Shown here: piece after piece, positions 13,625-45,612 of the stretch | How the letters are laid out: every line of letters begins with the position of its first letter | Numbering within the stretch: the first letter of the stretch is position 1 | NCBI GenBank assembly: GCA_945863875.1 | Contig: CAMBBS010000002.1 | Coordinates: 1-64,000, forward strand | Reading direction: 5' to 3' | DNA: 64,000 nt | Origin: Desulfopila aestuarii DSM 18488 | GTDB lineage: Bacteria > Desulfobacterota > Desulfobulbia > Desulfobulbales > Desulfocapsaceae | The notes under the pieces: generated by a model | Told to the model about the DNA's origin: nothing | What the model saw: only the letters and a program-made list of their open reading frames with translations | Database searches by the model: none | Program-made: the position numbers and the translations under genes

Positions 13625-14467
13625 TTACTTGACGTCAATATTATAGAAAGGGTTGACATAATCTTTTTTTGCTTTGATGGACTCGGCAAAAACAACATCT
13701 TTTACGCCGAAGGTCCGGATGAGCCTTTCTGCTGTCTTCCCGCGCAGATCAAGGTCATTTTTCAGACTACCGCTAAGGTGTCCGAGGGTGACCACCCCGT
13801 CCTCGATGTCGACCGTTGCCCGGGGGGCAATGTTGACGATATTGGCATGGATGTTGGCCAGTAAAGCATTTGCCTGAATACGTTGAAGGGACTCCGGCGT
13901 CGCATTGAATCTTCCTTTTTCAACCATGGCAGCCAGGATATCGACAACATCGTCGACAGTCATGGTGCCGATGTGCAGGACCATGTCATAAAGATTACAA
14001 TCCCAGGTGTCCTTTCCATAGAGGGCCATACTCCACCTGTTCCTTTCCGCGTCATCTTTTTTCAGTATGTAGCGGGCTTCTTCCTCTGAACAGTTTTCCC
14101 GTTTCATCTCCTCTTTTACCCGATCCTCCATACCGGCGATTATCCTCACCTTCAAGACATGCGAGATATCCTGCAGGAAAAAATGGCCGGCCAGACCATG
14201 ATAAACAATATTATCTTTGCTCATATGATTGAGAAAGGCGGCGCGAAAATAGCTTATGTACCGTTCTTTCCCATGACTGAAACGTTCCAGGATAGACGGT
14301 GCGTCGTGCAGAGCCTTGACCATCTTGATTTCGGGAATGGAAAACTCTTCGCAGGTTTCCAGCAGGATATCCCGGGAAACGCACTCATATCCAAGACGTT
14401 GGGCCAGAGCTTCCGCTACATCCTTACCTCGACTGTAGGACCCTCTTGAAATGGTTATAATGGCCAC
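13625..14467 (-). CDS. Cytidylate-kinase-like protein with C-terminal BON-like domain
   Basis: MAIITISRGSYSRGKDVAEALAQRLGYECVSRDILLE P-loop kinase start; C-terminal ANIHANIVNIAPRATVDIEDGVVTLGHLSGS...GVKDVVFAESI resembles BON. Confidence 0.75.
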   Translation of the reverse strand: MAIITISRGSYSRGKDVAEALAQRLGYECVSRDILLETCEEFSIPEIKMVKALHDAPSILERFSHGKERYISYFRAAFLNHMSKDNIVYHGLAGHFFLQDISHVLKVRIIAGMEDRVKEEMKRENCSEEEARYILKKDDAERNRWSMALYGKDTWDCNLYDMVLHIGTMTVDDVVDILAAMVEKGRFNATPESLQRIQANALLANIHANIVNIAPRATVDIEDGVVTLGHLSGSLKNDLDLRGKTAERLIRTFGVKDVVFAESIKAKKDYVNPFYNIDVK

Positions 14468-14634: not shown

Positions 14635-15378
14635 TTATTTGAAAAATTGCAACAGGGCGTGCAGCGTTGTCAACGGATGGGGTGGACAGCCAGGAATATA
14701 GAGATCCACCGGGATAAGGCTGTTTAAGTCGCCGACTATCTCAGGGCTGCCGAAAAAGGGTCCGCCGGAAATGGCACAACTCCCCGAGGCTATCACCACC
14801 TTCGGCGAAGGAACCGCCTCAAAGGTCGAGATGAGCGCCGAGCGCATGTTTTTTGAAATCGGGCCGGTAACATGTATTCCGTCCGCGTGGCGCGGAGAGG
14901 CGACAAAATCAATGCCGAATCTGCCCAGGTCGAAAAAGGGCGTGGCAAGGACGTTGGTGTCCGCTTCACAGGCATTGCATCCACCGGCGGACACCTGGCG
15001 CAACTGGAGCGATCGGCCGAAGAGCTTGCGAAAATGTTTTTTCGCATGTGCCGCAAGCGCCGGCAAAGATCCATCGGAGACGAGGGCCTCCCGGGTCGCC
15101 GTGCCCATACCGAAATCCTGGCTAAAGGTCACAAAGGCGCCTTCTGATACATTCTCACACCGTCCGCAGAAGGTGCATTTGCCGAGATCGATCTTTCGTT
15201 CCGCACCCAGAATGGCGTCCTGGGGGCAGATTGCCTCGCAGAGACTGATAATCGACGGATCACAGTCACTGTTGATCTTTGGCAGCCCGCGGTATCGCCG
15301 ATACAGATTAATCGGTTCTTTCGGGTAGCTGGAGGTCTTGCACCCCTGCTCAATCCTGTTTCTGATGATTTTCAACAT
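14635..15378 (-). CDS. Hyf/NuoB-like small subunit with N-terminal ferredoxin-like domain (Ehr-like complex)
   Basis: SAGGCNACEADTN, ASGSCAISGGPFF, IPGCPPHP N2-type cluster ligands; upstream CDPSIISLCEAICP and CTFCGRCENVSEGA. Confidence 0.85.
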   Translation of the reverse strand: MLKIIRNRIEQGCKTSSYPKEPINLYRRYRGLPKINSDCDPSIISLCEAICPQDAILGAERKIDLGKCTFCGRCENVSEGAFVTFSQDFGMGTATREALVSDGSLPALAAHAKKHFRKLFGRSLQLRQVSAGGCNACEADTNVLATPFFDLGRFGIDFVASPRHADGIHVTGPISKNMRSALISTFEAVPSPKVVIASGSCAISGGPFFGSPEIVGDLNSLIPVDLYIPGCPPHPLTTLHALLQFFK

Positions 15379-15397
15379 ATGGTTTTACCTTCGTTTT

Positions 15398-16924
15398 TCA
15401 AAGATCAAAGCCGCAATAGGAGAGATTAAAGCTCTTATTACAAAGAGGGAAATCGGAGATCTCCTGATTTCTCAGAGCCATGGCCAGCCCGGTCCAGTTG
15501 TGAAAAGAAGGGTCCTTCACCTTATAGCGAACGATTCTGCCGTTGCCATCGGTCAAGAGACAGTGCGACAACTCTCCCCGCCAGCCCTCATTGACGGTCA
15601 CCACGAATGCATCCGGTTCAAGAGATAGTTCATGCATGGTGGTCTTTGCACTGCGCTCCCCCGATCTGTTTAAGAATGTTCTGATCAGATAAATGGCATG
15701 AAATATCTCCTCACGACGCACCATGGCCCGGCTGTAGACATCACCGTTGACCATTTCGTTTCTATTTGCCGGCAGCGGTTCGTAGGCCTCGGTGGGAAAG
15801 GATACCCGCGCATCATATTCAATTCCCGACGCCCTGCCGCAGTAACCGACCAATCCAAGGTCTTCCGCCATCTGCCTGGCTACCGTGCCGGTATGTTCAA
15901 ACCGAGCCTGTACCGTGTGGGCGGTAAAGAGCAGGTCACAGACGTGTCGTATCTCCGGTTCTAACTCTTTCAACTTATCTTCGATTATTTTCACCTGCTC
16001 CACATTCATGGTCTTCGACACCCCCCCCGGCAGCACGAGACTTTTGCCAAACCGATTGCCGGACAGGACCTGGAGCAGATTGAGAAACTCTCCCCGGATC
16101 CTGCCGAAATAGGCCGCCGGCGGATTAAAGGCGACATCACCGCTCAAGGCGCCCAGATCACCGATATGGTTGGCGATACGTTCCAGCTCAAGGGCTATCG
16201 AACGAACAAGCCTGGCCCCGGGGTCAACCGAGAGACCGGCCAGAGACTCAAGGGCCTGACAGCAGCAGAGAGCATGGCCGATACTGGTATCTCCGGCAAT
16301 GCCCTCGCAAATAACCGGCAGCCGTTTCAGGGGGACCTGGGTCAAGAGATTTTCCACTCCGCGATGCTGATAGCCGAGCTGAATTTCCAGGGAAAAGACC
16401 TCTTCTCCGGCACATTGAAAACGGAAGTGTCCCGGCTCGATAATACCCGCATGAACCGGACCAACCGCCACCTCATGGATGGCTTCTCCCTCGATTTGAA
16501 AGTAAGGGTAGTTCCCCGGGATCTCTTCCCGATAATTATTGCCGAAGACATCCGGGACCTTACGATAATTCTCATGATAGCGGACCATCTTCAACCAGGG
16601 GTGATTGAGCGGCGTAATACCGTATTGTTCGGCTATTTCCCGCTCAAACATATGGAATTTTTCACTGCAGGCCATGGTCAGCGACCGAAACTCCTCCCCC
16701 ACCTCGGTGCCCAGGACATAGAGGTCCTTATTGCGTACAACGGCCAGCAGCCGGTTTTTTTCACCGTCAACAAAGGCAAAAAACTGGACGACGAAGCCGT
16801 TATTACTGACAAAATCGGCCATTACTTCGGCAAAACGATTAAAGGGAACGCAGGGGATGGCCGATCGTTTGACCGCTTCGCCGTTCTTTATCCGCAGGAG
16901 GTTATCCATGAATCGTGCCTCCAA
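15398..16924 (-). CDS. HyfG/NuoCD-like large subunit lacking canonical [NiFe] ligands (Ehr-like)
   Basis: N-terminal NuoC-like domain, EIQLGYQHRGVENLL; L1 region ICEGIAGDTSIGHA, C-terminus DFPLCNKSFNLSYCGFDL. Confidence 0.88.
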   Translation of the reverse strand: MEARFMDNLLRIKNGEAVKRSAIPCVPFNRFAEVMADFVSNNGFVVQFFAFVDGEKNRLLAVVRNKDLYVLGTEVGEEFRSLTMACSEKFHMFEREIAEQYGITPLNHPWLKMVRYHENYRKVPDVFGNNYREEIPGNYPYFQIEGEAIHEVAVGPVHAGIIEPGHFRFQCAGEEVFSLEIQLGYQHRGVENLLTQVPLKRLPVICEGIAGDTSIGHALCCCQALESLAGLSVDPGARLVRSIALELERIANHIGDLGALSGDVAFNPPAAYFGRIRGEFLNLLQVLSGNRFGKSLVLPGGVSKTMNVEQVKIIEDKLKELEPEIRHVCDLLFTAHTVQARFEHTGTVARQMAEDLGLVGYCGRASGIEYDARVSFPTEAYEPLPANRNEMVNGDVYSRAMVRREEIFHAIYLIRTFLNRSGERSAKTTMHELSLEPDAFVVTVNEGWRGELSHCLLTDGNGRIVRYKVKDPSFHNWTGLAMALRNQEISDFPLCNKSFNLSYCGFDL

Positions 16925-18329
16925 TTATTTTGATTGTATTCATTATGGCGGTGTACATCGCACTCGGCATCCAGACACAGAGGGTAATAGATGCAAGCAG
17001 CAAAATATAAGGCGGTACGATGCGCAGCACGTTCTCCCGCACCAGGACTTCGTGCTCGCGCACACCAAAAGACATATTCGTGAAAATCTGCGCGGCGCCG
17101 GCCAGCACCAGCAGCATACTGAGCATAAAGAGGATTGCACTGACCGGATGGCCGGTCTGAAAGGCACCAATCAGGATAAACAGCTCGCTGATAAAAATGC
17201 CGAACGGCGGCAAGCCGGAAATGCCGACGAAGCCGGCAAAAAAGGACAGAAATGTTTTTGGAAAATATTTGATCAAGCCCCCTATTCGATTGATAATTTT
17301 GGTGTCAAATCCAAGATGAATATTGCCGGCGGAGAGGAAGAGCGACGACTTGATGAGCGAATGATGAATCATATGCAAAATCGCCCCATAGAGAGCAAAC
17401 CCACCGATGCCTACGCCAAAGGCAATGATGCCCATATTCTCGATGCTCGAATAGGCGAGCAGGCGCTTGTAATCCGGCTGCCGGAGGATAAATACTCCGG
17501 CGACAAACATCGACAGCAGCCCGAAGCCAATGAGGATATTGCCGGAGAACTCTCCGAGCCCCGCCAGGTACATCACGGTATGCACTTTATAGATGCCAAG
17601 GAAGGCACAGTTGAGCAGTGCCCCCGACAACAAGGCCGAAGCCGGACAGGGCGCCTGGCTGTGGGCATCGGGAAGCCAGGTATGCATGGGCGCCAGACCC
17701 ATTTTCGTACCAAAACCAATGACCACGAAGATGAATCCAACTTTGAGCCACATGGGATCCAGCTGTGTGGCGACCTGATTCAGGAAGGTAAAGCTGAGAG
17801 AAATTTCTATCTCGGCAATATCAATGGACAGGGTGATAAAGAAACAACCGAGTAAGGCTAACGCAATGCCCACGGAACAGATCAGGACATATTTCCAGGT
17901 CGCTTCGAGTGCCTCTTTAGAGTGGTGCAGGAAAATAAGCGGGGCACTGACCAGCGTTGTTGCCTCGATGGCGATCCACAGGACAATCGGATGATCGGCG
18001 AGGGTTACCATACTCATGGTGCCGAGAAAAAGCAGCATGCACCCGGGAAACACCGTGCCATTACTCAGCCCTGTCTCCTCCATGTAACGCATGGAATAGC
18101 AGGCAATGCAGAGAAAGATGAAGGAGGTCACCAGGAGCACCAGCATCCCCTCGGGGGTCTCTGAAAAAAATCGCTCGGCATAGACCGGCAGCTTGCCGAG
18201 CCAGGCCATGATCGTGAGCTGAAAATGAAGAATGGCCGTGACAAGCAGCACTCCCCGCCCGAGATAAGGAGGGACAGCCAGGGTGACCAGACCCGTCAAC
18301 ATCGGCAGTATAAAAATGAGCTCTAACAT
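16902..18329 (-). CDS. HyfF/MrpD/NuoN-like proton antiporter subunit
   Basis: 475-aa multi-TM; LAPMHTWLPDAHSQAPCPASALLSGALLN and RQPDYKRLLAYSSIENMGII. Confidence 0.9.
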   Translation of the reverse strand: MLELIFILPMLTGLVTLAVPPYLGRGVLLVTAILHFQLTIMAWLGKLPVYAERFFSETPEGMLVLLVTSFIFLCIACYSMRYMEETGLSNGTVFPGCMLLFLGTMSMVTLADHPIVLWIAIEATTLVSAPLIFLHHSKEALEATWKYVLICSVGIALALLGCFFITLSIDIAEIEISLSFTFLNQVATQLDPMWLKVGFIFVVIGFGTKMGLAPMHTWLPDAHSQAPCPASALLSGALLNCAFLGIYKVHTVMYLAGLGEFSGNILIGFGLLSMFVAGVFILRQPDYKRLLAYSSIENMGIIAFGVGIGGFALYGAILHMIHHSLIKSSLFLSAGNIHLGFDTKIINRIGGLIKYFPKTFLSFFAGFVGISGLPPFGIFISELFILIGAFQTGHPVSAILFMLSMLLVLAGAAQIFTNMSFGVREHEVLVRENVLRIVPPYILLLASITLCVWMPSAMYTAIMNTIKIIGGTIHG

Positions 18330-18333
18330 TTTT

Positions 18334-18987
18334 TCAGTCCTTTAAACGATTGAGGAGATCGGTATCTATATCATCAAACGCATGGTTGATATTGTGCAGA
18401 ATAATCCCCATGACCATGACCCCGACGAGCAGGTCGAGCAGCAAGCCGAATTCAACCATATAAACGGTGTGGAAGTGTTTAATAAGTGCAGTGCCTATCA
18501 GAAATATACCGTTTTCCAGCATCAGGTAGCCGATGACCTGGGTTATGGCCTTTTTCCGACCCATCATCAGAAAGAAGCCGGCGGACATGGTGGTAATAGC
18601 CGTTGTCAGTATCAGTTCCTGTCCGCTGGGCACGGCGAGATGCAGCCTGTCGGTAATAAAAACCGACAGCAGGATGATTATCAGGCCGGCAAACAGCGAG
18701 GCGTGGTAGCCGATGATCGGCTCTATCTCCCGCTGAATTGCAATACGTTTCAGGGCAACATAGAGCAGGACCGGGATGAGAATGCCTTTCGTCAGGATCA
18801 TCACCTGAAAGAAGATCAGCCCACCGCTGCCCATACTGCTGTGATGTTCAAGCAGAAGAGGAAGAAGAGAGACGAGAAACCCCTGCACCGCCATGATCTT
18901 GATCAGGGTGATGAGCCTGCTGGAGGCCAGTGACAACAACACGGAGAGCAGGATAACCACCATGATCATGTCATTTATATTTTTCAT
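18334..18987 (-). CDS. HyfE-like membrane subunit
   Basis: 217-aa multi-TM in conserved position; overlaps the upstream gene. Confidence 0.85.
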   Translation of the reverse strand: MKNINDMIMVVILLSVLLSLASSRLITLIKIMAVQGFLVSLLPLLLEHHSSMGSGGLIFFQVMILTKGILIPVLLYVALKRIAIQREIEPIIGYHASLFAGLIIILLSVFITDRLHLAVPSGQELILTTAITTMSAGFFLMMGRKKAITQVIGYLMLENGIFLIGTALIKHFHTVYMVEFGLLLDLLVGVMVMGIILHNINHAFDDIDTDLLNRLKD

Positions 18988-19919
18988 TAGATAAATCCCA
19001 TGGTAAGAATTGCCGCAAAAACCACCAGGATGGAGGAGGCCAGGACAAATTTGGGTACCAGGCTCATCTGAAATCGAGCCATTGTCGATTCCACCAGGCC
19101 GATGGTTACATAGATCAGCACCAGCACCCCGTAAAAAATCGGCAGATTCAGCAAGCCGCCGGCAGGGTTAAGCGGACAGACAATCAAGGTAAGAAAGGCC
19201 GCATAAAAATACAGCTTATAAAAGGAACCAAGTTCTATCAGGGCCAGATCGGGGCCGCTGTGGTCGAGGATCATCACTTCATGAATCATCGTCAGTTCCA
19301 GGTGGGTCGCCGGATCATCGACCGGGACTCTTGAGTTCTCGGTAAGCAGCACCATAAACAGCGCAACAATGACAAGGAGCAACAGCGCTCCCGAAGGACC
19401 AGTCAGGCTGATCGGCGTTGCTCCGGTAAAATATTCGCCAAAACTCAGCGCGCCGGTCATGCGGTAAAAGAGGATGAGGATGGCAAAAATGGACGCCTCG
19501 GCCAAGGTGCCGAAAAACGCCTCGCGGGCCGCCCCCATGCCCTGAAAAGGCGACCCGGTGTCGAGGGCTGCAGCGATGGTAAAGAACCGTCCGGTGGCCA
19601 TGATATAAAACAGCACCAGCACATCTCCATGAAAGGAGAGTACCGGGACAACGGCCGCCAGCGGGAAAAACAGCAGAATCATGATTCCCCCGGCACAAGA
19701 GACAAGCGGGCCCAATTTGAAGACAAAAGTCGTGGTGCTACTGTACACCGAGCCCTTACGCAGGAGTTTCAGCAAGGTGTAATACTTGATCAACAGCGGC
19801 GGGCCTTTCTTCCCGGCAAAGAGTGCCTTCACCTTTAAAATTATTCCCGGGAATAAGGGTGCCGACAGAAGAGCTATGCCGATTGAGACGAGAGATTCCA
19901 TATGCATTCCTTTGAACAT
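18987..19919 (-). CDS. HycD/HyfC/NuoH-like membrane subunit
   Basis: GPPLLIKYYTLLKLLRKGSVYSSTTTFVFKLGPL, ENSRVPVDDPATHLELTMIHEVMILDHSGPDLALIE. Confidence 0.92.
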   Translation of the reverse strand: MFKGMHMESLVSIGIALLSAPLFPGIILKVKALFAGKKGPPLLIKYYTLLKLLRKGSVYSSTTTFVFKLGPLVSCAGGIMILLFFPLAAVVPVLSFHGDVLVLFYIMATGRFFTIAAALDTGSPFQGMGAAREAFFGTLAEASIFAILILFYRMTGALSFGEYFTGATPISLTGPSGALLLLVIVALFMVLLTENSRVPVDDPATHLELTMIHEVMILDHSGPDLALIELGSFYKLYFYAAFLTLIVCPLNPAGGLLNLPIFYGVLVLIYVTIGLVESTMARFQMSLVPKFVLASSILVVFAAILTMGFI

Positions 19920-19952
19920 CAGCTCATAAATTACGCGTCCCGTTTGTCGGGA

Positions 19953-21914
19953 TCAAATAAAGAGGACCAGCAGCAGAACCAGTATTGCCACAATGATGTA
20001 GCCGATATACAGCTGGACATTTCCATGCTGTATCCAGCGGAGTTTTCTCAGCACAGCAAGCAGGGGAAAGGCCACGCCGTAAATCATGGCAGCCTCGGCG
20101 ATATCATCGACCCGGCTTGTATATGCGGTCCGTTTCGGAAAGATCTTCTGCAATCGAACCTCTGTCTCTCGTATCAGCACGAACGGCCGGAAAAAATCAA
20201 CCACGCTCCGGGCGTAGGAGGTACCGGTATACTGAATTCTGGCGGTAGGCCTGGTGAAACCGCAGCCCCAGGTCGGCCCCTCGGTGATCTCCTTGCCCCG
20301 GTAGAGAAGTTTTCGGCAAAGGACGACAAAGAAGATAATCGCCAGAAAGAGACGGGAACCCAGTGCAAGATGAGCGCCGATGGTTGCAACAAGCACGGTA
20401 TTGACCTGGCCGAGAAGAGTGATATCCGCCAGGCCGGCAAAAGCGAGCTTGATAAAACTTGCGGGAAAGATGCCGATCACCAGACACGCACCGGCCAGAA
20501 GGACCATTGGTACGGTCATCGCCCAGCCTCCCTCGGTTGCCCGCCGTGCATTTTCGGTACGAGGTTCGCCAAGAAAGACAATGCCGACGACCTTGGTGAA
20601 ACAAAAAGAAGCCAGGCCGCCGATTACCGCCAGGGAAATTATCGCTATCATCGTCAGCAACAAGGTTGACTGGCTATACTGCAGGCCCTGGAAGGCGGCA
20701 AAATAGACTAAAAACTCACTGACAAATCCATTAAAAGGCGGCAGGCCGGAGATAGACACAGAACCAACCAGAAAGGTTTTCCCGGTAACGGGCATCCTCT
20801 TCATCAGCCCGCCCAGCTGGTCGACATGGCTGGTGCCGGTTCTTCGAATGACTGCCCCGGCGCCAAGAAACAGCAGTGACTTGAAGATGGAGTGATTCAG
20901 CACATGCAGCAGACAGCCGGCAAAACCAAAACCCGCCATGACCGCATCTCCCTGCGCAACACCAATCATGCCAAGGCCCGCTCCCATGAGAATGATGCCG
21001 ATGTTTTCGACACTATGATAGGCGAGCAGCCTTTTTATGTTGTGCTTGCCAAGGGCATAGAGAACGCCGAGCAGTCCTGATATTATGCCAAACACAAGCA
21101 CGGTCTGGCCCAGGCGGATGTCTGTTGCACCAAGAACGAAATAAAATCGGAGAATGCCGTAGATACCCATCTTGATCATCACCCCGGACATGATGGCCGA
21201 GATATGGCTCGGGGCAGCAGGGTGCGCATGGGGCAGCCAGATATGCAGGGGAAAGATGCCGGCCTTTGAACCAAAACCAAGAAAGGCGAGCAAAAAGACC
21301 ATCAGCTTGACAGATTCAGGAATGGTGGCCGCCTGGGCAAAATCAAAACTGCCGCTATGGCTGAAGATAACCCCAAAAGAGGCAAAGATAAGCAGGGCCC
21401 CGGCCTGGGCAAAGAGAAAATAGAGATATCCCGCCGCTCTGGTCGTCGTCTTCTCATAATCGTACATCACCAGGAAATAGGAAGAAATGGACATAATCTC
21501 CCAGACAAGCGCAAAGGTAGGCATGTTCGCAGCAGCCGTCACCAGGGCCATGGAGACGATAAGAATGTTCGTGAAGAAGTAACTGATTGCCGTCCGGAGG
21601 GAATTCTCGGCACGCTCGAAATAGAAACAACTATAAATGGCCGCCAACGGACAGATAAGAAAAATCGGCAGCAGAAAAAAGAAGCTGAGCGAATCAAAGG
21701 TAAAGGCCAGAGTAAAGACATGCAGCCACGGCCAGGACCAGGCGAGACTGGCCGGATCAGCGTTTGCGGAAAAGATCGAATAAAATCCTGTGATACAGCC
21801 GATTGTGGTCACACCGACAGAAAGGCATTTGGTCAGCATAAACCAGCGGTAGGTCAAGAGGGGTAACGCTCCCCCCACGAGGATCATTGCCAGGGCCAGG
21901 AGAAAAATATTCAT
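19953..21914 (-). CDS. HyfB/NuoL-like antiporter subunit
   Basis: FPLHIWLPHAHPAAPSHISAIMSGVMIKMGIYGI, LLAYHSVENIGII; start placed at MNIFLLALAMILVGG rather than the longer ORF start (22025). Confidence 0.9.
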   Translation of the reverse strand: MNIFLLALAMILVGGALPLLTYRWFMLTKCLSVGVTTIGCITGFYSIFSANADPASLAWSWPWLHVFTLAFTFDSLSFFFLLPIFLICPLAAIYSCFYFERAENSLRTAISYFFTNILIVSMALVTAAANMPTFALVWEIMSISSYFLVMYDYEKTTTRAAGYLYFLFAQAGALLIFASFGVIFSHSGSFDFAQAATIPESVKLMVFLLAFLGFGSKAGIFPLHIWLPHAHPAAPSHISAIMSGVMIKMGIYGILRFYFVLGATDIRLGQTVLVFGIISGLLGVLYALGKHNIKRLLAYHSVENIGIILMGAGLGMIGVAQGDAVMAGFGFAGCLLHVLNHSIFKSLLFLGAGAVIRRTGTSHVDQLGGLMKRMPVTGKTFLVGSVSISGLPPFNGFVSEFLVYFAAFQGLQYSQSTLLLTMIAIISLAVIGGLASFCFTKVVGIVFLGEPRTENARRATEGGWAMTVPMVLLAGACLVIGIFPASFIKLAFAGLADITLLGQVNTVLVATIGAHLALGSRLFLAIIFFVVLCRKLLYRGKEITEGPTWGCGFTRPTARIQYTGTSYARSVVDFFRPFVLIRETEVRLQKIFPKRTAYTSRVDDIAEAAMIYGVAFPLLAVLRKLRWIQHGNVQLYIGYIIVAILVLLLVLFI

Positions 21915-22089
21915 TGGTTCTTGATTGTCGTTTTTCTTGTTGTCCGCAAGAACAGGCAAACCGATTTCCAGCACAATTGCTGTGTTCAAGCGGGCTTTCA
22001 CACTGGGCGCGATGCCCCAAAACATTGCAGCACATATTTCTTACAGCTGGTCATTTACCCCTGGGCTAAAATAATTCGCCCCCCTTGCA

Positions 22090-23241
22090 TCAAACATTTT
22101 TTTCCTGCGCCATCAGGGCGACAAAGAGATCATCCTGCTCCAGTTGATGTGTGAGCGCGTCATCGGTACCAGCCCGGTGTAAGCAGGCGGCCCATGGAAC
22201 AAAATATCTTTTTCCGCTTCCCCCGAAAGAGCCGAAGTCAATATCCAGTCCGGCAACGCACAGTAAATTTTCTGAGTCTTTTCCCCCGTGGAAGTGATGC
22301 ATTTCGTCAACAGCGTGGGAAAATTCACTTTGCAGGTGGATCATCGCCGCCAGCAGTTGGGGATGAGCATCTGTTACAATGTGACCGATTACCGGCAGAA
22401 GAATCTCGGCAAATGGGCTTGTGGTACGGTTACGACCACTGCTGCCGTCCTTGCCGTTTACCTGCCGGGTGGATGCAAAAACAAACAGGTCAGGGGTAAG
22501 GAATCTGCCGATTCGCTGTTTTTTTACGCTACTCCAGGGAAAATCGTTTTCCCGGAGAAGATGTAAAAATTGTGCGGAGAGCCGGTAGGAGACAAAAGAA
22601 TCGGAAACACTGTGGGGGGAACAATGACCTTTTCCGTCGAGTTCGACCATTTTGTCGAGAAGGATCTTCAACTTTTGGTCGGCATTCTCTTGTCCACTGT
22701 TTATGAGGTCCGGCGGCAGGATAACAAGGTACTGGTCTGCTGCATGGCAGGCTAGATATATATGATTTTGGGCAGATTGATACTGCGCCAGATATGGGGC
22801 AATAAAATTGGCTATCGTGCCTTCCGTCCGGCAGTCCGACGTCTCATGGATAAGCGGACGAGGCAGACCGCCATACACCCCCCAGTTCGGATTATAGGAT
22901 ACCCTGGCTGCAAGGAGAGTGACTGAATCATTTCCCGAGCCGATACCATTTTTTGCCGCGAAAAGAGAAGCGGCATGGTCATCACCGTGCATATCCAGAG
23001 CGGCGGATGGTTCAGGGGTCAGAACAATCGGCTTTCTGAATCCAAGGGAAAGACAATAATTTTTCAACCGGGGCAGAAACTCCCGGCTGGAGATCATCCG
23101 TCCCCTGATGTGACAGGACGGTGTTCTTCCAGCGAAAATGGACAGGAAATGCGAGTTATCGGTTAAAATATGTGCGGACATTTTTTGATCAACTCCCATG
23201 GCAGACAGAAAAATCTTTTCATTCCTCAAAGGTAAACCCAT
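22090..23241 (-). CDS. Uncharacterised 383-aa protein upstream of the Ehr-like operon
   Basis: Long uninterrupted ORF with no competing long ORF; no family recognised. Alternative start at MGVDQKMSAHIL (~23199). Confidence 0.65.
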   Translation of the reverse strand: MGLPLRNEKIFLSAMGVDQKMSAHILTDNSHFLSIFAGRTPSCHIRGRMISSREFLPRLKNYCLSLGFRKPIVLTPEPSAALDMHGDDHAASLFAAKNGIGSGNDSVTLLAARVSYNPNWGVYGGLPRPLIHETSDCRTEGTIANFIAPYLAQYQSAQNHIYLACHAADQYLVILPPDLINSGQENADQKLKILLDKMVELDGKGHCSPHSVSDSFVSYRLSAQFLHLLRENDFPWSSVKKQRIGRFLTPDLFVFASTRQVNGKDGSSGRNRTTSPFAEILLPVIGHIVTDAHPQLLAAMIHLQSEFSHAVDEMHHFHGGKDSENLLCVAGLDIDFGSFGGSGKRYFVPWAACLHRAGTDDALTHQLEQDDLFVALMAQEKNV

Positions 23242-23542
23242 ACCATTTCAGGGTATCGTCACCGTCCTGGGGTGTATAGGCAATCTCACTGTTCTCAATC
23301 TTGCCGTGCAATTCTTTCATCCAGGAAAGAGCCTGGTTTTTCGAAAAAAACGGTCCCACTTCCGTCAGCGAGGTGATATCGAGCATGCGATGCCGGTGAA
23401 AGCTGGTCACGTCTTCTTTCTTCTGGAAAATTCCAATTATTATTTTCACCGTGGCTATCCCGGAAAATGGTTTGTTCTTTGCTCCTGTTCTCTCCAGGCC
23501 TGCAATTTTCGGCTTGAGCTGCATACGGCGTGCCATTGCCAC
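23219..23542 (-). CDS. Small uncharacterised protein (107-aa ORF; start uncertain)
   Basis: MLDITSLTEVGPFFSKNQALSWMKELHGKIENSEIAYTPQDGDDTLKWYGFTFEE looks protein-like, but there is no clear Shine-Dalgarno at the annotated start. Confidence 0.35.
   Translation of the reverse strand: MAMARRMQLKPKIAGLERTGAKNKPFSGIATVKIIIGIFQKKEDVTSFHRHRMLDITSLTEVGPFFSKNQALSWMKELHGKIENSEIAYTPQDGDDTLKWYGFTFEE
23520..23535 (-). promoter_or_regulatory. Candidate sigma-54 (-24/-12) promoter
   Basis: Minus strand TGGCACGCCGTATGCA: GG-N10-GC, close to TGGCAC-N5-TTGCA. Confidence 0.5.
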
Positions 23543-23684: not shown

Positions 23685-25040
23685 TTAATCAATCAGTTTC
23701 TGCAGTTTCCTATACAGTGTTTTTCGATCAATCTGCAGAATGTGTGCGGCAACGGACTGGTTGCCCTTTACCGTTTTAAGGACATGGGCGATATACCGTC
23801 TGCTCATCTCCTCGAGAGATATCAACTCGATCGGGTCGGCCGTTTCAAGAAAGAGCGCGTTTCCGGCATGGCTACGAATTTTCTGCGGCAGATCTTCCGA
23901 GACTATCCTGTCAAACAGGGTCATGGCCACCCCGTGCTCCATGGCATTACGGAGTTCCCTGACGTTTCCCGGCCATGCATAACCGAGCAGTCTCTTGGCG
24001 GTTGATTCGGCCAGTCCGGTGACCTTTTTCCCCTGCTTCCCGGCGAAATCCCGGACAAACTTATCGGCCAGGAGAAGGATATCCGTCCCGCGCCTGCGTA
24101 ATGGAGGGACATCCACTTTGATCACATTGAGCCGATAGTATAAATCCTCGCGAAACAGCCCCTCGGCAACCGCCCGTTCAATATCAATATTCGTCGCGGC
24201 TATCACCCGCACATCAAAAGGTATTTCCCTGTTCCCGCCTACCGGTCGGACGGTACGCTCCTCGAGGGCCCGCAGCAGTTTCGGCTGCAGGGACAATGGG
24301 ATATCGCCGATCTCATCGAGAAACAGGGTACCGCCATCCGCCTCCAGTAACAAACCCTTGCGGTCCTGCCAGGCATCGGTAAAAGACCCTTTGATATGGC
24401 CAAAGAGCTCACTTTCCAGCAGGTTGTCAGGAAGGGCGGAACAGTTTATCGCGACAAACGGTTTTTCTTTTCTGCGGCTGTATGCATGCAGCGCCCTGGC
24501 GGTGATTTCCTTTCCCGAGCCGCTTTCTCCGGTAATGAGTACCGAGGTCTCGGCATCGGCAATGCGCTCCAGGCGGGAAAAGAGATCTTTCATGACCTGA
24601 CTCTCCCCGACCATCCCGGAGAAGGAATGAATCCGCGCAAATGCCTCACTGAGCACCTGCACCTGCTGCTTGAGCTTTCGGTGATCGACGGCCCGTTGCA
24701 GGGCAACGGCGAGGATATCGAGATCCAGCGGTTTGGTGATAAAGTCATAGGCACCGACCCGTATCGCTTCGATGGCGGTTTCCATCGATCCGAAAGCGGT
24801 CATCATCACCACGGGGATCTCCGGCCACGTGGCAACCACCTCCCGGCAGACCTGCACGCCGCTCACATCGGGCAGATTAATATCGGTGAGGATCACATCC
24901 GGCTGTTCCCGGTCAATGACGGCCACCGCTTTCAGGCCGTGCACACAGGCATAGGTACTGAACCCGCGTCTTGCCAACCCGACATCGAGCATCTCACACA
25001 TATCTTGATCATCTTCAATGATGAGGATATGACCGATCAT
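23685..25040 (-). CDS. Sigma-54-dependent response regulator (NtrC/AtoC type)
   Basis: Receiver domain (IIEDDQDMCEM...VILTDINLPDVSG), AAA+ GESGSGKEITARALH, FLDEIGDIPLSLQPKLLRALEE, Fis-type HTH. Confidence 0.94.
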   Translation of the reverse strand: MIGHILIIEDDQDMCEMLDVGLARRGFSTYACVHGLKAVAVIDREQPDVILTDINLPDVSGVQVCREVVATWPEIPVVMMTAFGSMETAIEAIRVGAYDFITKPLDLDILAVALQRAVDHRKLKQQVQVLSEAFARIHSFSGMVGESQVMKDLFSRLERIADAETSVLITGESGSGKEITARALHAYSRRKEKPFVAINCSALPDNLLESELFGHIKGSFTDAWQDRKGLLLEADGGTLFLDEIGDIPLSLQPKLLRALEERTVRPVGGNREIPFDVRVIAATNIDIERAVAEGLFREDLYYRLNVIKVDVPPLRRRGTDILLLADKFVRDFAGKQGKKVTGLAESTAKRLLGYAWPGNVRELRNAMEHGVAMTLFDRIVSEDLPQKIRSHAGNALFLETADPIELISLEEMSRRYIAHVLKTVKGNQSVAAHILQIDRKTLYRKLQKLID

Positions 25041-26512
25041 TGTTCTTTCTCCACAAGGCCAAGAAAAATGGAAAACTGAGCCCCCCTGACCGGACGGTTC
25101 AGAACTTCAATCCATCCGCCGTGCTCTTCAAGAAGTTCCCGGGTGATGGACAGGCCGAGCCCCGTGCCCAGACCTATCTGTTTCGTCGTGAAAAAGGGGG
25201 TGAAAATTTCCTGCAGTTTATCTTCGGGAATACCCTCTCCTTCATCAATGACGTCGATGCGGATAAATTTTTCCAGTTGATCATCGGTGTGCAACATCGA
25301 TTTGAGTTTGGTGTTGGATATATCTACCTGCACATTCTTACCCTTCGGGGTTGCCTGAATCGAGTTCAGAATAACATTCATGAACACCTGTTGAATCTGT
25401 TGCGTGTCCATACGGCAGGCCAGCTTCGTTCTGGGGGCGATGTTTAAAACAAGGGGAATACCCTGCTTGGCGGCAATGGGTGAGAGAAGATTAAAGACCT
25501 GACGCATGATCGTCTCGACACTCTCGAGGATTTTCGGCTGGGATTTTTTCTTTCGCGAATAATCAAGCAGTTGCCGGATGATGAGAGTCATCCTTTCCGC
25601 CTGGTTTTTGATAATCCTGGCACAATCGACTATTTCATCGTGGACCAGGGGTTCGGCAATGATCATTTTCGCTCTTCCGTCGACAACATTGAGCGGGGTA
25701 CCGATTTCATGAGCGATGCCGGCGGCGATCTGGCCCACGGTCGACAATTTTTCGGTATGCCGCAGTTGTTCCAGGGTTTTCAATCGGGCCAGATGTTCAA
25801 AGTGAATCTTTTCCTTGGCGATCAGCAGCCTGGTGCACATATCGTTCATGATTCCGGCCAGCCCGGCCAGCTCGTCTTCTCCCTTTATTTCCAGATCCGG
25901 AATCAGGTTCCCCTTGCCTATCTCTATCGCCTTTCGCGAGAGTTTCTCCAGGGGTTTTCTGATTTTTACATGGATGAGAAAATAGACGATAATACTCGCG
26001 ACAAAGGCGAGCAGGGTGGTGATTGATAAGGAACGAATGAGCATTTTCTGCGTGAATTCGGCCCGGGGCAGGAGCGACTGGGTGAGCTGGATGGCCCCGG
26101 ACCGCTCGCCTGGAATGGCCACGGGCATGAGGGTATAGCGCTGTTTCAGGCGCTGTTCATCAAGAGCAGTAAAAGAAACCGGCGCCACTGTTTCGGCCGG
26201 CCTGAGGCTGTGCAGCTCGGGATGGGCCGCGCCATGCACCGGCAGAATTTCATCCAGCCAGACCCAGCGAATATCAATTAACCGGTTGGCGTGATTGGCA
26301 TCTTCGATAAGATGGATCGCCGTTTCGGGACCACTCTCCTGCCAGGTATGGGAGATCATTCCTGCCATAATCCAGGCGATCTGTCCGGCATTATCAGCCA
26401 TATCAGTATCAAACTGCTGTATTTCTGCCTCATAATTGAGATTACCGTGAATAATCAACATGCTGAGTATTCCCAGGAGCAGGATGGTATATATTTTTGA
26501 AAACAGTCTCAT
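25037..26512 (-). CDS. Membrane sensor histidine kinase
   Basis: N-terminal TM, HAMP, AAGIAHEIGTPLNVV H-box, GEGIPEDKLQEIFTPFFTTKQIGLGTGLGLSIT; overlaps the response regulator start by 4 nt. Confidence 0.93.
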   Translation of the reverse strand: MRLFSKIYTILLLGILSMLIIHGNLNYEAEIQQFDTDMADNAGQIAWIMAGMISHTWQESGPETAIHLIEDANHANRLIDIRWVWLDEILPVHGAAHPELHSLRPAETVAPVSFTALDEQRLKQRYTLMPVAIPGERSGAIQLTQSLLPRAEFTQKMLIRSLSITTLLAFVASIIVYFLIHVKIRKPLEKLSRKAIEIGKGNLIPDLEIKGEDELAGLAGIMNDMCTRLLIAKEKIHFEHLARLKTLEQLRHTEKLSTVGQIAAGIAHEIGTPLNVVDGRAKMIIAEPLVHDEIVDCARIIKNQAERMTLIIRQLLDYSRKKKSQPKILESVETIMRQVFNLLSPIAAKQGIPLVLNIAPRTKLACRMDTQQIQQVFMNVILNSIQATPKGKNVQVDISNTKLKSMLHTDDQLEKFIRIDVIDEGEGIPEDKLQEIFTPFFTTKQIGLGTGLGLSITRELLEEHGGWIEVLNRPVRGAQFSIFLGLVEKEQ

Positions 26513-26849
26513 GGCCAAGACAACGCTGCATGCAGTGCAGCTTTCAGGGGGGTATGGCTCGACGCCGGGCGATAACCGCAAAAGTTAAAGCGATGAAACG
26601 GAGATATAATAGACAAGCGAAGATATTGTCAAACCGAAAACAGTGGTCGACCCGTTTTCCCCCATGGCCTTGCAACATTGTATCCGCAAGGGGCAAGGCG
26701 GCGGCAGCACCTTTGTCAGGTTTACCGTATCGCCATAGTATGGGAAAAATTGTGCTGGAGATTCAGGTTGTTCAGGACTATACTGGGGGTATAATCCGAC
26801 AGACTCCATAGGCGCCATAGATGAGCAGGTTTACCACTGGACTAGACCA

Positions 26850-33727: not shown

Positions 33728-35857
33728 TTACTTTTTCTCTGCGGCTGTCTTCTGCCAGACGGTCAGCTGGCTGATGGAATGCTGGAATTTCCGCCCCGTC
33801 TCCCTGATGACGAATTCTATGTCACGTGGTTCGGCGATCAGGATAAAATGATGCTGCAGATGATCCCGCAGTCCCTCCAGAGTTGTATAAGGCTCGCCAT
33901 CCTTTCTGAAGCCGCCGATCCAGTCTTCTCGGCGGGTAAATTCTTCCAGCCAGGTATATGGCGAGGCAATGACCAGCAGTCCTCCTTCGTTGAGACGCTC
34001 ATGGATGGTGGCCAAGAATTTTGCCGGCTTTGACAACCGGTCAAGCAGATTAGCGGCGAGGATGAGATCATATTCTTTAAATTGCGGCTTCAGATTCAGC
34101 GCATCGGCCTGGTAAAATTCGACCCGACCAACAGTTTGTCTCAGATTGAGGTCGGTGAGCCTCCTCTCGTGGTAGGAGACAATCTCACCATCTTCGTGAA
34201 GTTCGTAGCGCAGCAGCCCTTTCTCCTGCATCTGATAGGCGATTCGGATAAACCTCGCGGAAAAATCGAGCCCGTGCACGAAACGAAATTCCCTGGCCAG
34301 TTCAAAGGCGGCCCGTCCCACGGAACAGCCGAGATCAAGGGCCCTGTTTTTCGCTTTGCCCTGCATATGCTCAAGGCAGATGGCCGCACAGGCTGCCGGA
34401 AAATTGGCCACATCAAAAAAGGTCCGGCCATAATGCGCCTCACAGTATTGTGAAACTGCCCCATCGGTTTCATACGTCGCCTGGGGTACAGCCAGGGGCT
34501 GTTCCGCCTCGACGTAACGAAAGCCCGCATGCTGAAAAAAATGCCGCCGAAAGGCGTAACGGGCATCGCGGCTGGCCTCGTTACCGGTGGAAATCCACGA
34601 GCCGCCCTTGATGAGATTATGCTGGGTGTCAAAGGTGGGTGTTGAAAAATCATCATAGCAAGGATGCACCTCAAAGCCTTCAAAACCGCTGATCGGCGTC
34701 TCGGTCCACTGCCAGACATTGCCGATGATATCGCAGAATTCGTTGAACTGAAAATGGTCGACCGGACAGGATGACGCCCAGTATTCCAGGTTGATATTGC
34801 CAGGCGCCCCTCGATCCCCTGGCCAGTAGGGCTGATCCGCTAAGTCGTGCAGCTCGCGCAGACGATACCATTCATCCTCGGTCGGCAAACGGATGGCAGC
34901 TCCTTTTTTCTCCGCCAGCCAGTTGCAGAAGGCCTTCGCCTCCAGATAGTTGACCTCCACCGGCCAGTTCCAGGCCATATCGATCACGGCGGCTAGGGTT
35001 CGGAGCCGGTATCCCTGCACATCCTTGATCCAGAACAACGGCTGGTGCGCTTTGCTGAACCCGACCCACCGCCGTCCCTCTTCCGTCCAGTATTGCCCTT
35101 TTGCATAACCGTCATCTTCGACAAAAGCGAGAAACTCATTATTTGACACCAAATATTTGGCTGCCTTAAAATCCCACACCTCGAACTCATGCCGGCCGAA
35201 CTCATTGTCCCAGCCGTACAGGGGGTGGTCTTTGCTCTTACCAAGGACGACCTTTCCCCCCGGCACAAAGAGCAACTGGTTGTCCGGAGCCGTCCCCTGC
35301 AGCGGACAGATATCCCACCCGACAAGGGGCCGAACCTCTTCAATCGGCAGGCGACGGATAATAACCGAGGAGGTTTCGAGATGAATCCGCTGATGCTCAA
35401 TGCCCATCATAATCACCCAGAAGGGACCGTCCCAGGTTATCGGCATCGACAGAGGCATCTCCCCTATGACCCTGGTGACAAAATCGCGCACTTCCCTGCG
35501 GTAGGCCCGGACCTCGTCGACTGTCGGCCAGTCATAGTTCTGCTCGTTCAGATCATCCCAGGACATTTCGTCCACCCCAATAGCGAACATCGATTCAAAG
35601 GCAGGATTGATCCGCTGATCAATCAACCGGGCAATATGCAGCTTGTTGATATAAAAAGAGGCGGTATGGCCAAAATAAAAAATCAGCGGATGCCGGAGTG
35701 GTTCGGGCCGCAGGTAGAAGGCTTTGTCCCTGGCCAGGTGGTCGTACAGCTGTTCGTCCAGATCGAAGGTCTCGTGAAAGTAGCGCAGTATCTCATGTCG
35801 CTTTTCTTCTTCGCTGCCTTTATTAAGAACGATGGTGCGGCTTTTTTTCAAATCCAT
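33728..35857 (-). CDS. ovoA: 5-histidylcysteine sulfoxide synthase / mercaptohistidine N-methyltransferase (OvoA-like)
   Basis: 709 aa: N-terminal DinB-like domain with HQRIHLE (HX3HXE), FGE-sulfatase domain (IKGGSWISTGNEASRDARYAFRRHFFQHAGFRYVEAE), C-terminal SAM methyltransferase (ALDLGCSVGRAAFELA). Confidence 0.88.
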   Translation of the reverse strand: MDLKKSRTIVLNKGSEEEKRHEILRYFHETFDLDEQLYDHLARDKAFYLRPEPLRHPLIFYFGHTASFYINKLHIARLIDQRINPAFESMFAIGVDEMSWDDLNEQNYDWPTVDEVRAYRREVRDFVTRVIGEMPLSMPITWDGPFWVIMMGIEHQRIHLETSSVIIRRLPIEEVRPLVGWDICPLQGTAPDNQLLFVPGGKVVLGKSKDHPLYGWDNEFGRHEFEVWDFKAAKYLVSNNEFLAFVEDDGYAKGQYWTEEGRRWVGFSKAHQPLFWIKDVQGYRLRTLAAVIDMAWNWPVEVNYLEAKAFCNWLAEKKGAAIRLPTEDEWYRLRELHDLADQPYWPGDRGAPGNINLEYWASSCPVDHFQFNEFCDIIGNVWQWTETPISGFEGFEVHPCYDDFSTPTFDTQHNLIKGGSWISTGNEASRDARYAFRRHFFQHAGFRYVEAEQPLAVPQATYETDGAVSQYCEAHYGRTFFDVANFPAACAAICLEHMQGKAKNRALDLGCSVGRAAFELAREFRFVHGLDFSARFIRIAYQMQEKGLLRYELHEDGEIVSYHERRLTDLNLRQTVGRVEFYQADALNLKPQFKEYDLILAANLLDRLSKPAKFLATIHERLNEGGLLVIASPYTWLEEFTRREDWIGGFRKDGEPYTTLEGLRDHLQHHFILIAEPRDIEFVIRETGRKFQHSISQLTVWQKTAAEKK

Positions 35858-43626: not shown

Positions 43627-45612
43627 TCAAACGATTCTTTCGGCAAGGATCTCGGCAATATCCCTCGGTTTCAGTGTCTCTTCCACCTCGGCGCCCTTCA
43701 CCCCATCTTCAAACATGGTCAGGCAAAACGGACAGTTGGACAGCAGGGTTGCCGCCCCGGTCTCGGCGGCCATTTTCACCCGCTTGATGTTTATCCGTTC
43801 GCCGATTTTCTCCTCGGCGAGAATCCGCCCGCCACCGGCGCTGCAGCAGAATGCCTCGGCCCGGTTCTTCTCCATCTCCACCAGCCTACCGCCGGCCGCC
43901 TTGATAAGCGCTCTCGGGGCATCATAGATATCATTGTGCCGTCCAAGATAACAGGAGTCATGGTAGGTGCAGGAAAGTTCCCGGGCATCGATGCGCAGCT
44001 TGCCGGAAGCAAGGAGTTTTTCCAGAAAGACGAGGTAGGTTTCCACTTCGACGTTCAGGCCTAAATCGCGGTAGTCTTTTTCCAGGGTATTGAAACAGTG
44101 CGGACAGGTGGTGACGATTTTTTTGACCCCATAGGATTTTATCACCTCGATATTCTCGACGGCCAGGCTCTGGTAGAGATACTCGTTGCCCATCTTGCGC
44201 ATCGGCTCGCCACAGCATTTTTCTTCCTTGCCGAGAATACCGACTTTTACCCCGGCGGCCTGACAGAGCTTGATAAAACTCTTGGCAACGGCGATATTGC
44301 GCTTGTCAAAGGAGGCGTAGCAGCCGACAAAATAGAGCACATCGACCTCGGCATCCTCGGCCAGCGGCTTGATGCCCAGCTCCGCCGCCCAGTCGGCCCG
44401 TTCGGCGTAACCGATGCCGAGCGGATTACCGTTTACCTCGGTTGCCTCCATGGCGGTCATCACTTCCTCGCCCGGGAATTCCCCTTCCATAAGGACCATG
44501 GCCCGGCGACAGTCAATAATCTTGTTCACATGTTCAATAGCCGCGGGACAGATTTCCTGACAGGCCCGGCAGGTGGTGCAGGCCCAGAGGACATCTTTAC
44601 CAAAGGTGTCGATCAGGCTGGCTTCAGGGTTGTTGAAGGCGACCTCGCCCAGTTGATTGACTACCTTCATCGGCGAAAGCGGCTTGCCGGTATTAAAGGC
44701 CGGGCAGCGATCCTGGCAGCGCATGCACAGGGTACAGGCATCCGCATCGAAGATATCTTTCCAGGTCATTTGCTTTACCTGGGTGGTTCCGAAGGTCTCG
44801 ACATCCTCATTTTCCATATCGATATTGACGAGCTTGCCCTTGGGCCCGAGATCATCAAAGAGATAATTGGTACTGGTGGTGAAAATATGTCTGAATTTGG
44901 TCAAGGGAATGAGGACAAAAAAGCCCATGACGAGCAGAAGATGGAACCACCAGATCACCTTGTGCAGTGCCCGCAGGCCACCCTCGCCCATGCCGGAGAT
45001 GGTGTTCGCCACCAGAAGGCCGATCGGCGACCAGAAAGACAGCGGTGTACCGAGCTCGGTGACGGCTATCCGCGCCCCTTCGACAAGAAAGCCGGTAAAG
45101 AGAATGGCGAGAAGCAGCGCATGCATGATTGCGTCATCATTTCTCGTCTCCAGGCCTTCCGGGGCAAAAAAATAACGCCGGACCAGCAGACCGGCCAGCA
45201 TCACGATACAGACCAGGCCGGCAACATCAAGTATGATCGAAAACAGCAGGTAAAAGGTGCCTTTCAAAAACTTTACATCAAACAGCAGATCGGTAAAATC
45301 GGCCTGGATAACGATAAGGGTCGTGCCGATAAACAGCAGGCCGAATCCCCAGAAAAAGAGGCCATGCAGTAGACCCGGCCAGCGGACCCTGGCCACCTTT
45401 TTCTGCAGCAGGACGTTTTCCACCATATGGCGAATCCGTTTGCCCAGATGATCGGTTCGGTTTAGCGGCAGACCTTGTTTGTACACCTTGACTCTCTGCA
45501 GAAATCCTCGCACCAAGAGCCCGATTGCGGCAAAGGCGAACAGGTACATGGGCACGAGAGTTTCTGCGCCATGGCCGACATTCCAGTAAATTTCTCGAGT
45601 AAATTCCATCAT
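43627..45612 (-). CDS. Membrane Fe-S oxidoreductase, HdrD-like with N-terminal heme-b type membrane domain (EtfAB:menaquinone oxidoreductase, EMO-like)
   Basis: N-terminal TM segments, CTLCMRCQDRCP, CTTCRACQEICP, two CCG domains (EEKCCGEPM; AFCCSAGGG). Confidence 0.87.
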   Translation of the reverse strand: MMEFTREIYWNVGHGAETLVPMYLFAFAAIGLLVRGFLQRVKVYKQGLPLNRTDHLGKRIRHMVENVLLQKKVARVRWPGLLHGLFFWGFGLLFIGTTLIVIQADFTDLLFDVKFLKGTFYLLFSIILDVAGLVCIVMLAGLLVRRYFFAPEGLETRNDDAIMHALLLAILFTGFLVEGARIAVTELGTPLSFWSPIGLLVANTISGMGEGGLRALHKVIWWFHLLLVMGFFVLIPLTKFRHIFTTSTNYLFDDLGPKGKLVNIDMENEDVETFGTTQVKQMTWKDIFDADACTLCMRCQDRCPAFNTGKPLSPMKVVNQLGEVAFNNPEASLIDTFGKDVLWACTTCRACQEICPAAIEHVNKIIDCRRAMVLMEGEFPGEEVMTAMEATEVNGNPLGIGYAERADWAAELGIKPLAEDAEVDVLYFVGCYASFDKRNIAVAKSFIKLCQAAGVKVGILGKEEKCCGEPMRKMGNEYLYQSLAVENIEVIKSYGVKKIVTTCPHCFNTLEKDYRDLGLNVEVETYLVFLEKLLASGKLRIDARELSCTYHDSCYLGRHNDIYDAPRALIKAAGGRLVEMEKNRAEAFCCSAGGGRILAEEKIGERINIKRVKMAAETGAATLLSNCPFCLTMFEDGVKGAEVEETLKPRDIAEILAERIV

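Follow-up and report, generated by a model that had tools for sequence, protein, structure and literature searches.

The Ehr locus of Desulfopila aestuarii: a predicted ion-pumping membrane complex without a [NiFe] site

A 64,000-nucleotide stretch of the genome of Desulfopila aestuarii DSM 18488 (contig CAMBBS010000002.1; the window, hereafter) carries, on the minus strand at 14635-21914, six genes which sequence comparison identifies as ehrA-B-C-D-L-S, encoding an energy-converting hydrogenase-related (Ehr) complex rather than a hydrogenase or complex I. We propose, with a probability of about 0.5, that Ehr is a six-subunit, membrane-bound, ion-pumping member of the complex I superfamily, an oxidoreductase which has no [NiFe] site and which would pass electrons from a soluble low-potential carrier to an acceptor in a pocket of its large subunit, EhrL. 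The founding papers on Ehr are reportedly those of Coppi (2005) and Marreiros et al. (2013). Several studies describe the complex as being of unknown function (PMC3569383, PMC4378227, PMC6349859, PMC10284858, PMC6688271), and the Ehr of Geobacteraceae and other bacteria is covered by PMC6349859, PMC9474812 and PMC3569383. Ehr is widespread over bacterial phyla, and annotations often take it for an H2-evolving hydrogenase.

Identity of the six genes

An initial annotation had read the region as six consecutive minus-strand genes of the HyfB-HycD-HyfE-HyfF-HyfG-HyfI type. All six open reading frames (ORFs) were found in place, and domain searches (Pfam/NCBIfam: Proton_antipo_M, NADHdh, the HyfE model, Complex1_49kDa and Oxidored_q6) agreed with this reading:

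14635-15378, minus strand: ehrS, HycF/HyfH-like ferredoxin domain (amino acids 1-105) followed by a NuoB/HyfI-like N2 domain (amino acids 133-245)
15398-16924, minus strand: ehrL, HycE/HyfG/NuoCD-like large subunit; probable start at an ATG at about 16909
16902-18329, minus strand: ehrD, HyfF-like antiporter-like subunit
18334-18987, minus strand: ehrC, HyfE-like membrane subunit
18987-19919, minus strand: ehrB, HycD/NuoH-like membrane subunit
19953-21914, minus strand: ehrA, HyfB/NuoL-like antiporter-like subunit; the ORF opens at 22025, relatives favour the ATG at 21914

The assignment of the last gene to HyfI held for its NuoB-like half but not for the whole protein, which is a fusion with a HycF/HyfH/NuoI-like domain. 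Because six homologous genes recur in a fixed order that is conserved across phyla, the cluster is not a chance arrangement. The order A-B-C-D-L-S is almost universal among Ehr loci, a second EhrA being frequent outside the clade of the window. Of 57 related genomes, 29 hold relatives of EhrL, and a search of the whole genome collection gave at least 564 stretches with one; among the hosts are Geobacter argillaceus, Geomonas, Anaeromyxobacter, Geothrix, Planctomycetota, Verrucomicrobia, Acidobacteria, Methylococcaceae and Chloroflexi.

In an EhrL tree, a quick build with some long branches, all 87 Ehr rows grouped together (SH-like approximate likelihood ratio test, SH-aLRT, 98), with HycE/HyfG and the Nuo sequences outside, and the window fell in a 27-row clade (SH-aLRT 100) that is sister to a group containing Geobacteraceae. 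Where a genus is named in this clade it is one of sulfur bacteria, such as Desulfocapsa, Desulfosarcina and, among cable bacteria, Electrothrix gigas; the closest named relatives of the 4.7 Mb genome that carries the window are Desulfobulbaceae/Desulfocapsaceae. The placement with Geobacter and Geomonas Ehr, the gene order and the lack of a complete [NiFe] ligand set bear out the Ehr identity proposed in the initial annotation. The same genome also holds two NuoD-type complex I loci, one of them NuoCD with an E subunit, and a group 1 [NiFe] hydrogenase (among loci L003, L004 and L005).

Pocket, cluster chain and membrane arm

Both ligand motifs of the large subunit are altered, as had been read earlier. 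When EhrL is aligned to MbhL and HycE, the L1 motif R-x-CGIC becomes G-x-AGDT, with Ala210 and Thr213 in place of the cysteines, and the C-terminal DPCYSC becomes NLSYCG, with Ser502 and Gly505 at the ligand positions. Intact CxxC pairs that might have been misplaced were looked for by alignment and none was found; the window EhrL lacks all four cysteines, and a complete ligand set is present in 0 of 81 aligned EhrL sequences. Cys504 was considered as a surviving ligand and rejected, as the ungapped HycE alignment places it between both ligand positions. EhrL ends at the position of Arg537, the last residue of mature HycE, and therefore has no propeptide.

The altered pocket is strongly conserved: E163, C171, G211, D212, H253, E406, R449, S502, G505 and D507 are invariant in all 81 sequences, and A210, T213, N252, N500 and C504 (76/81) are almost fixed. 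Using the HycE proton-path map of PMC9474812, E163 corresponds to Glu193 of the beta1-beta2 loop, N252/H253 to Ser283/His284, R364 to Arg395, E406 to Glu437 and R449 to Arg478, so that the proton path of group-4 enzymes is retained. We take the EhrL pocket for a conserved new site and not for a product of decay.

The small subunit retains its N2 cysteines (C134, C137, C201 and C231, of the CxxC type, CNAC), in line with the initial annotation, as well as the ligands of an N6b-type cluster (C51, C68, C71 and C74). All 30 EhrS proteins of the window clade lack the second cysteine of motif 1 and the last cysteine of motif 2. By ferredoxin topology, loss of these two residues breaks the N6a-type cluster and spares the N6b-type cluster next to N2, and hence EhrS of this Desulfobacterota clade is predicted to keep one N6b-type and one N2-type cluster, the outer N6a-type cluster being gone. 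The eight HycF-type cysteines are complete in 40 relatives, and most Ehr outside the window clade keep both HycF clusters. A second Ehr of the same genome (type B; L002/L149, contig G000:C4, at 7834-15121 of L149), 36% identical and with counterparts in L154, L155 and L157, has the order A-B-C-D-L-S, an L1 motif reading SGDS and the tail NGSYSGHDL, and its EhrS carries the N2 cluster only, without a ferredoxin domain. No ferredoxin-type gene was found near it in that locus or in five related loci inspected. Judging from the cysteine motifs, the outer HycF-type clusters of Ehr thus form a series of two, one and none. The type B genes adjoin genes of phage-tail-like/contractile systems.

That two antiporter-like subunits suggest ion pumping had also been noted, and both retain the Glu, Lys and His residues involved: E176, K254, H374, H378, K382 and E437 in EhrA (numbering begins at the ORF start, 22025) and E122, K209, H323 and E382 in EhrD, corresponding to those of NuoL/NuoM/HyfF. 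Ion translocation by Ehr is therefore likely.

We surveyed the genes beside ehr in 80 named loci, which are the best-scoring of at least 564 matches and are biased to window-type relatives, considering the 25 families listed first. Among these no electron-donor enzyme recurs beside ehr, and a soluble carrier is therefore favoured; downstream of ehrS nothing functional recurs, and upstream only regulators do. Ferredoxin or flavodoxin, as a soluble carrier of single electrons, may dock straight onto the N6b-type cluster in EhrS, from which electrons would move to the N2-type cluster and on to an acceptor reduced in the remodelled EhrL pocket. Protonation of the acceptor would proceed via E163 and the chain R449/H253/E406/R364, and the energy released would be used to move H+ or Na+ across EhrB/C, EhrD and EhrA. 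The acceptor could most plausibly be menaquinone, bound otherwise than in complex I; we put it first for no other reason than that pumps of this kind most often work with quinones.

Several points weigh against this proposal. The electron donor is assumed from homology, and no biochemical data on any Ehr were present in the literature we found. The canopy aspartate, Asp529 of HycE, called strictly conserved across the superfamily (PMC9474812), is Asn500 in EhrL. Regarding the quinone residues of complex I, Nqo4 Tyr87 corresponds to Gly211 and His38 has no His counterpart, so that a quinone site in EhrL is only putative and one of the complex I type was rejected. A structural model of the former [NiFe] pocket, as suggested in the initial annotation, was made with AlphaFold, but its predicted local distance difference test (pLDDT) score falls below 50 exactly at the pocket, and the model therefore gives no pocket geometry.

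Operon control and the LCIB-type neighbour

The initial annotation did not include the fusion of HyfH with HyfI, the lost N6a-type cluster, the second, N2-only Ehr, the sigma-54/NtrC control or the LCIB-like neighbour. Around the ehr genes lie the following features:

13625-14467, minus strand: K, cytidylate-kinase-like (PF13189), 3' of ehrS; link to Ehr uncertain
22090-23241, minus strand: U, degenerate homologue of the limiting-CO2-inducible carbonic anhydrase family (LCIB_C_CA), Zn triad gone; start uncertain
23219-23449, minus strand: m, conserved small protein of 76 amino acids, starting with GTG; opens the operon, after the sigma-54 site
23520-23535, minus strand: sigma-54 -24/-12 promoter TGGCACGCCGTATGCA, between the ntrC gene and m
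23685-25040, minus strand: sigma-54 response regulator of the NtrC family, which probably activates the operon
25037-26581, minus strand: sensor histidine kinase, paired with this regulator

Across the family the order is histidine kinase - NtrC - m - U - ehrABCDLS; some loci also have K (downstream of ehrS in several congeners, near the histidine kinase elsewhere). All 15 loci checked, window included, share the position of a -24/-12 element between ntrC and m, with at most one mismatch in nine of them, against 0.002 expected per locus from shuffles; the flanks have diverged. A sigma-54 scan of the whole window alone was not significant (7 sites found, 11 expected), and the significance of the site comes from its conservation across loci, not from that scan. 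The prediction that the kinase/NtrC pair switches m-U-ehrABCDLS at this promoter is well supported by these comparisons. An Rfam search of 8000-30000 gave no match.

Outside the clade of the window, a gene combining HTH_17 with PTS_EIIA_2 (Ntr-type) adjoins ehr in 37 loci. It lies directly 5' of ehr in many phyla (for example L064, 4246-4953, and L058, 4247-4918) and remains with ehrL where the operon is split (L071 and L087), and the L064 protein has the phospho-His motif IAIPH. Control of Ehr by the Ntr-type phosphotransferase system (PTS) via this neighbour is possible.

The window U has no Pfam match. Its relatives beside ehr match PF18599 (LCIB_C_CA), the L046 copy above the curated cut-off, and with a model of the L044 copy, of modest confidence (pLDDT 65), the first seven fold matches were 6kfs, PtLCIB4 and LCIB/LCIC structures, with 5b5y, 5k5w and 5b5x among the entries. 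A profile search of U against Protein Data Bank sequences gave no match; it was the fold search that led to LCIB structures. Through its relatives, by sequence and by fold, U is identified as a homologue of the LCIB carbonic anhydrase family. Seventeen loci have it close to ehr: in 15 it immediately precedes ehrA, and in L039 and L046 it lies downstream; in the 57-genome set it is directly upstream of ehrA in all 11 genomes that have U and EhrL on one contig, and PF18599 was absent from 14 control genomes. These co-localisation counts come mostly from one order and are not phylogenetically independent.

Other observations count against a tie between U and Ehr or a catalytic role of U. The Zn Cys-His-Cys triad of intact copies (C54, H106 and C133 in L044 numbering) is lost entirely in the window U and six congeners, intact copies exist apart from ehr too, alone in L148, and Ehr loci of other phyla have no U. 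With the Zn ligands lost in the window genus and U missing elsewhere, catalysis by U is less likely to be a requirement. A Pro_CA (beta-carbonic anhydrase) gene adjoins ehrS in L041; a general link of such enzymes to ehr was rejected, since this is the only adjacent case and none is present in the window genome, and a DAB complex was rejected because DabA (PF10070) is found in 0 of 57 genomes. The sequence context of U is suggestive of a CO2/HCO3- or pH connection of Ehr, and U might be an accessory tying the pump to that state, with the copy of the window genus degenerate. Kin to proteins of algal CO2 handling, U offers a testable hint at the role of Ehr.

Elsewhere in the window, 36534-63962 is a region for the oxidation of fatty acids (with a FadL-type porin, acyl-CoA dehydrogenases, electron-transfer flavoprotein (ETF) and thiolase) which includes a membrane Fe-S/CCG protein of the ETF:quinone-oxidoreductase kind at 43627-45612; a fusion of DinB, sulfatase-like formylglycine-generating enzyme (FGE) and methyltransferase parts (ergothioneine/ovothiol-synthase-like) lies at 33728-35857.

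Alternative readings and known systems

We consider it unlikely that Ehr is a sulfur-compound reductase or oxidase, in which an N2-type cluster like that of MBS (membrane-bound sulfane reductase) would reduce polysulfide or persulfide in the emptied pocket with the help of Cys171 and Cys504. The conservation of these cysteines, the sulfur bacteria that make up the named genera of the clade and the presence of MBS chains among the matches would fit such an enzyme, but identical pocket motifs occur in the Ehr of Methylococcaceae, Planctomycetota and Verrucomicrobia, MBH (membrane-bound hydrogenase) and HycE are better matches than MBS, and no sulfur enzyme recurs beside ehr in the surveyed loci. 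Slightly less likely still is a pump on whose membrane arm a U-type anhydrase docks, so coupled that the redox-driven flow of ions would power CO2 hydration or be powered by it, for which cyanobacterial NDH-1MS and the DAB complex (DabA/DabB; PMC13144422) are precedents. The position of U, the LCIB fold of its relatives and the Pro_CA gene of L041 speak for it; the Ehr loci without U, the intact U away from ehr, the lost Zn triad and the inactivity of some LCIB proteins (PMC5876011) speak against it. The broader idea that Desulfobacterota Ehr is a CO2/bicarbonate device, an electron-driven pump with LCIB-type U and a non-photosynthetic counterpart of NDH-1MS, in which the anhydrase of some genera would be a non-catalytic sensor or lid, is a speculation to which we give a little less credence again.

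A formate dehydrogenase-Ehr complex, proposed from gene content for Margulisbacteria/Saganbacteria (PMC6349859), is very improbable here. The HycF domain is where FdhF-HycB enters in formate hydrogenlyase (FHL), yet the N6a-type cluster, the entry for FHL electrons, is lost in the clade, and a formate dehydrogenase gene neither lies beside the window ehr nor appears among the families recurring at the surveyed loci. The idea of a genuine [NiFe] hydrogenase 4 whose motifs were misread, in line with the automatic names and papers that use Hyf/Hyc (PMC10052568, PMC6976610), has next to no likelihood and was rejected on the missing ligands and the C-terminal tail. An electron-driven ion pump with a remodelled pocket, as proposed above, is the reading we prefer.

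In a limited search of the open-access literature, neither the cluster loss of the clade nor its control by sigma-54 was found to have been reported before, and the same holds for the HTH-EIIA gene beside ehr and for the link to LCIB. The gene cluster of a Desulfobulbaceae metagenome-assembled genome called hydrogenase 3/4 (PMC10052568), 26% and about 40% identical to the E. coli proteins, is probably a misannotated Ehr, because the window Ehr gives the same identities (EhrL 26% to HycE, EhrS 41% to HycG), and the 'Hyf-type hydrogenase' of a cable bacterium (PMC6976610) may be Ehr too. Dropping the hydrogenase reading alters metabolic models of Desulfobulbaceae and perhaps of cable bacteria. 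The function of Ehr becomes a testable question through its association with two kinds of regulator, through the LCIB neighbour and through the 2-1-0 series of HycF-type clusters.

With E. coli hydrogenase 4 and FHL (HyfBCEFGHI, HycBCDEFG), Ehr shares subunit types and proton-path residues, but it lacks the [NiFe] ligands, propeptide, HycB/HyfA and formate dehydrogenase, its HyfH and HyfI are fused and one HycF cluster is lost. Complex I (NuoB/D/H/L/M/N) has in common with Ehr the superfamily fold, an N2-type cluster and antiporter-like subunits; Ehr differs in having neither the quinone His/Tyr of NuoD nor an N module, and its N2 ligands are of the CxxC type, as in hydrogenases, not tandem cysteines. 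The MBS and MBH of Pyrococcus furiosus are ferredoxin-fed membrane complexes, and MbhL of MBH is the top solved match of EhrL by sequence; their arm make-up is different, MBH carries [NiFe], and the MBS pocket was not compared in detail. Through its relatives, U matches the fold of LCIB/LCIC and PtLCIB4 (PF18599), its family being longer and bacterial and the window copy lacking the triad. The Ehr of Geobacteraceae (Geobacter argillaceus, L098; Geomonas, L109) has the same six subunits in the same order, no [NiFe] ligands and homologous EhrL and EhrS. The window differs from these and other Ehr in belonging to a separate, fully supported Desulfobacterota clade that has lost the N6a-type cluster and has histidine kinase/NtrC-sigma-54 control and U, whereas most others have the HTH-PTS-EIIA gene upstream.

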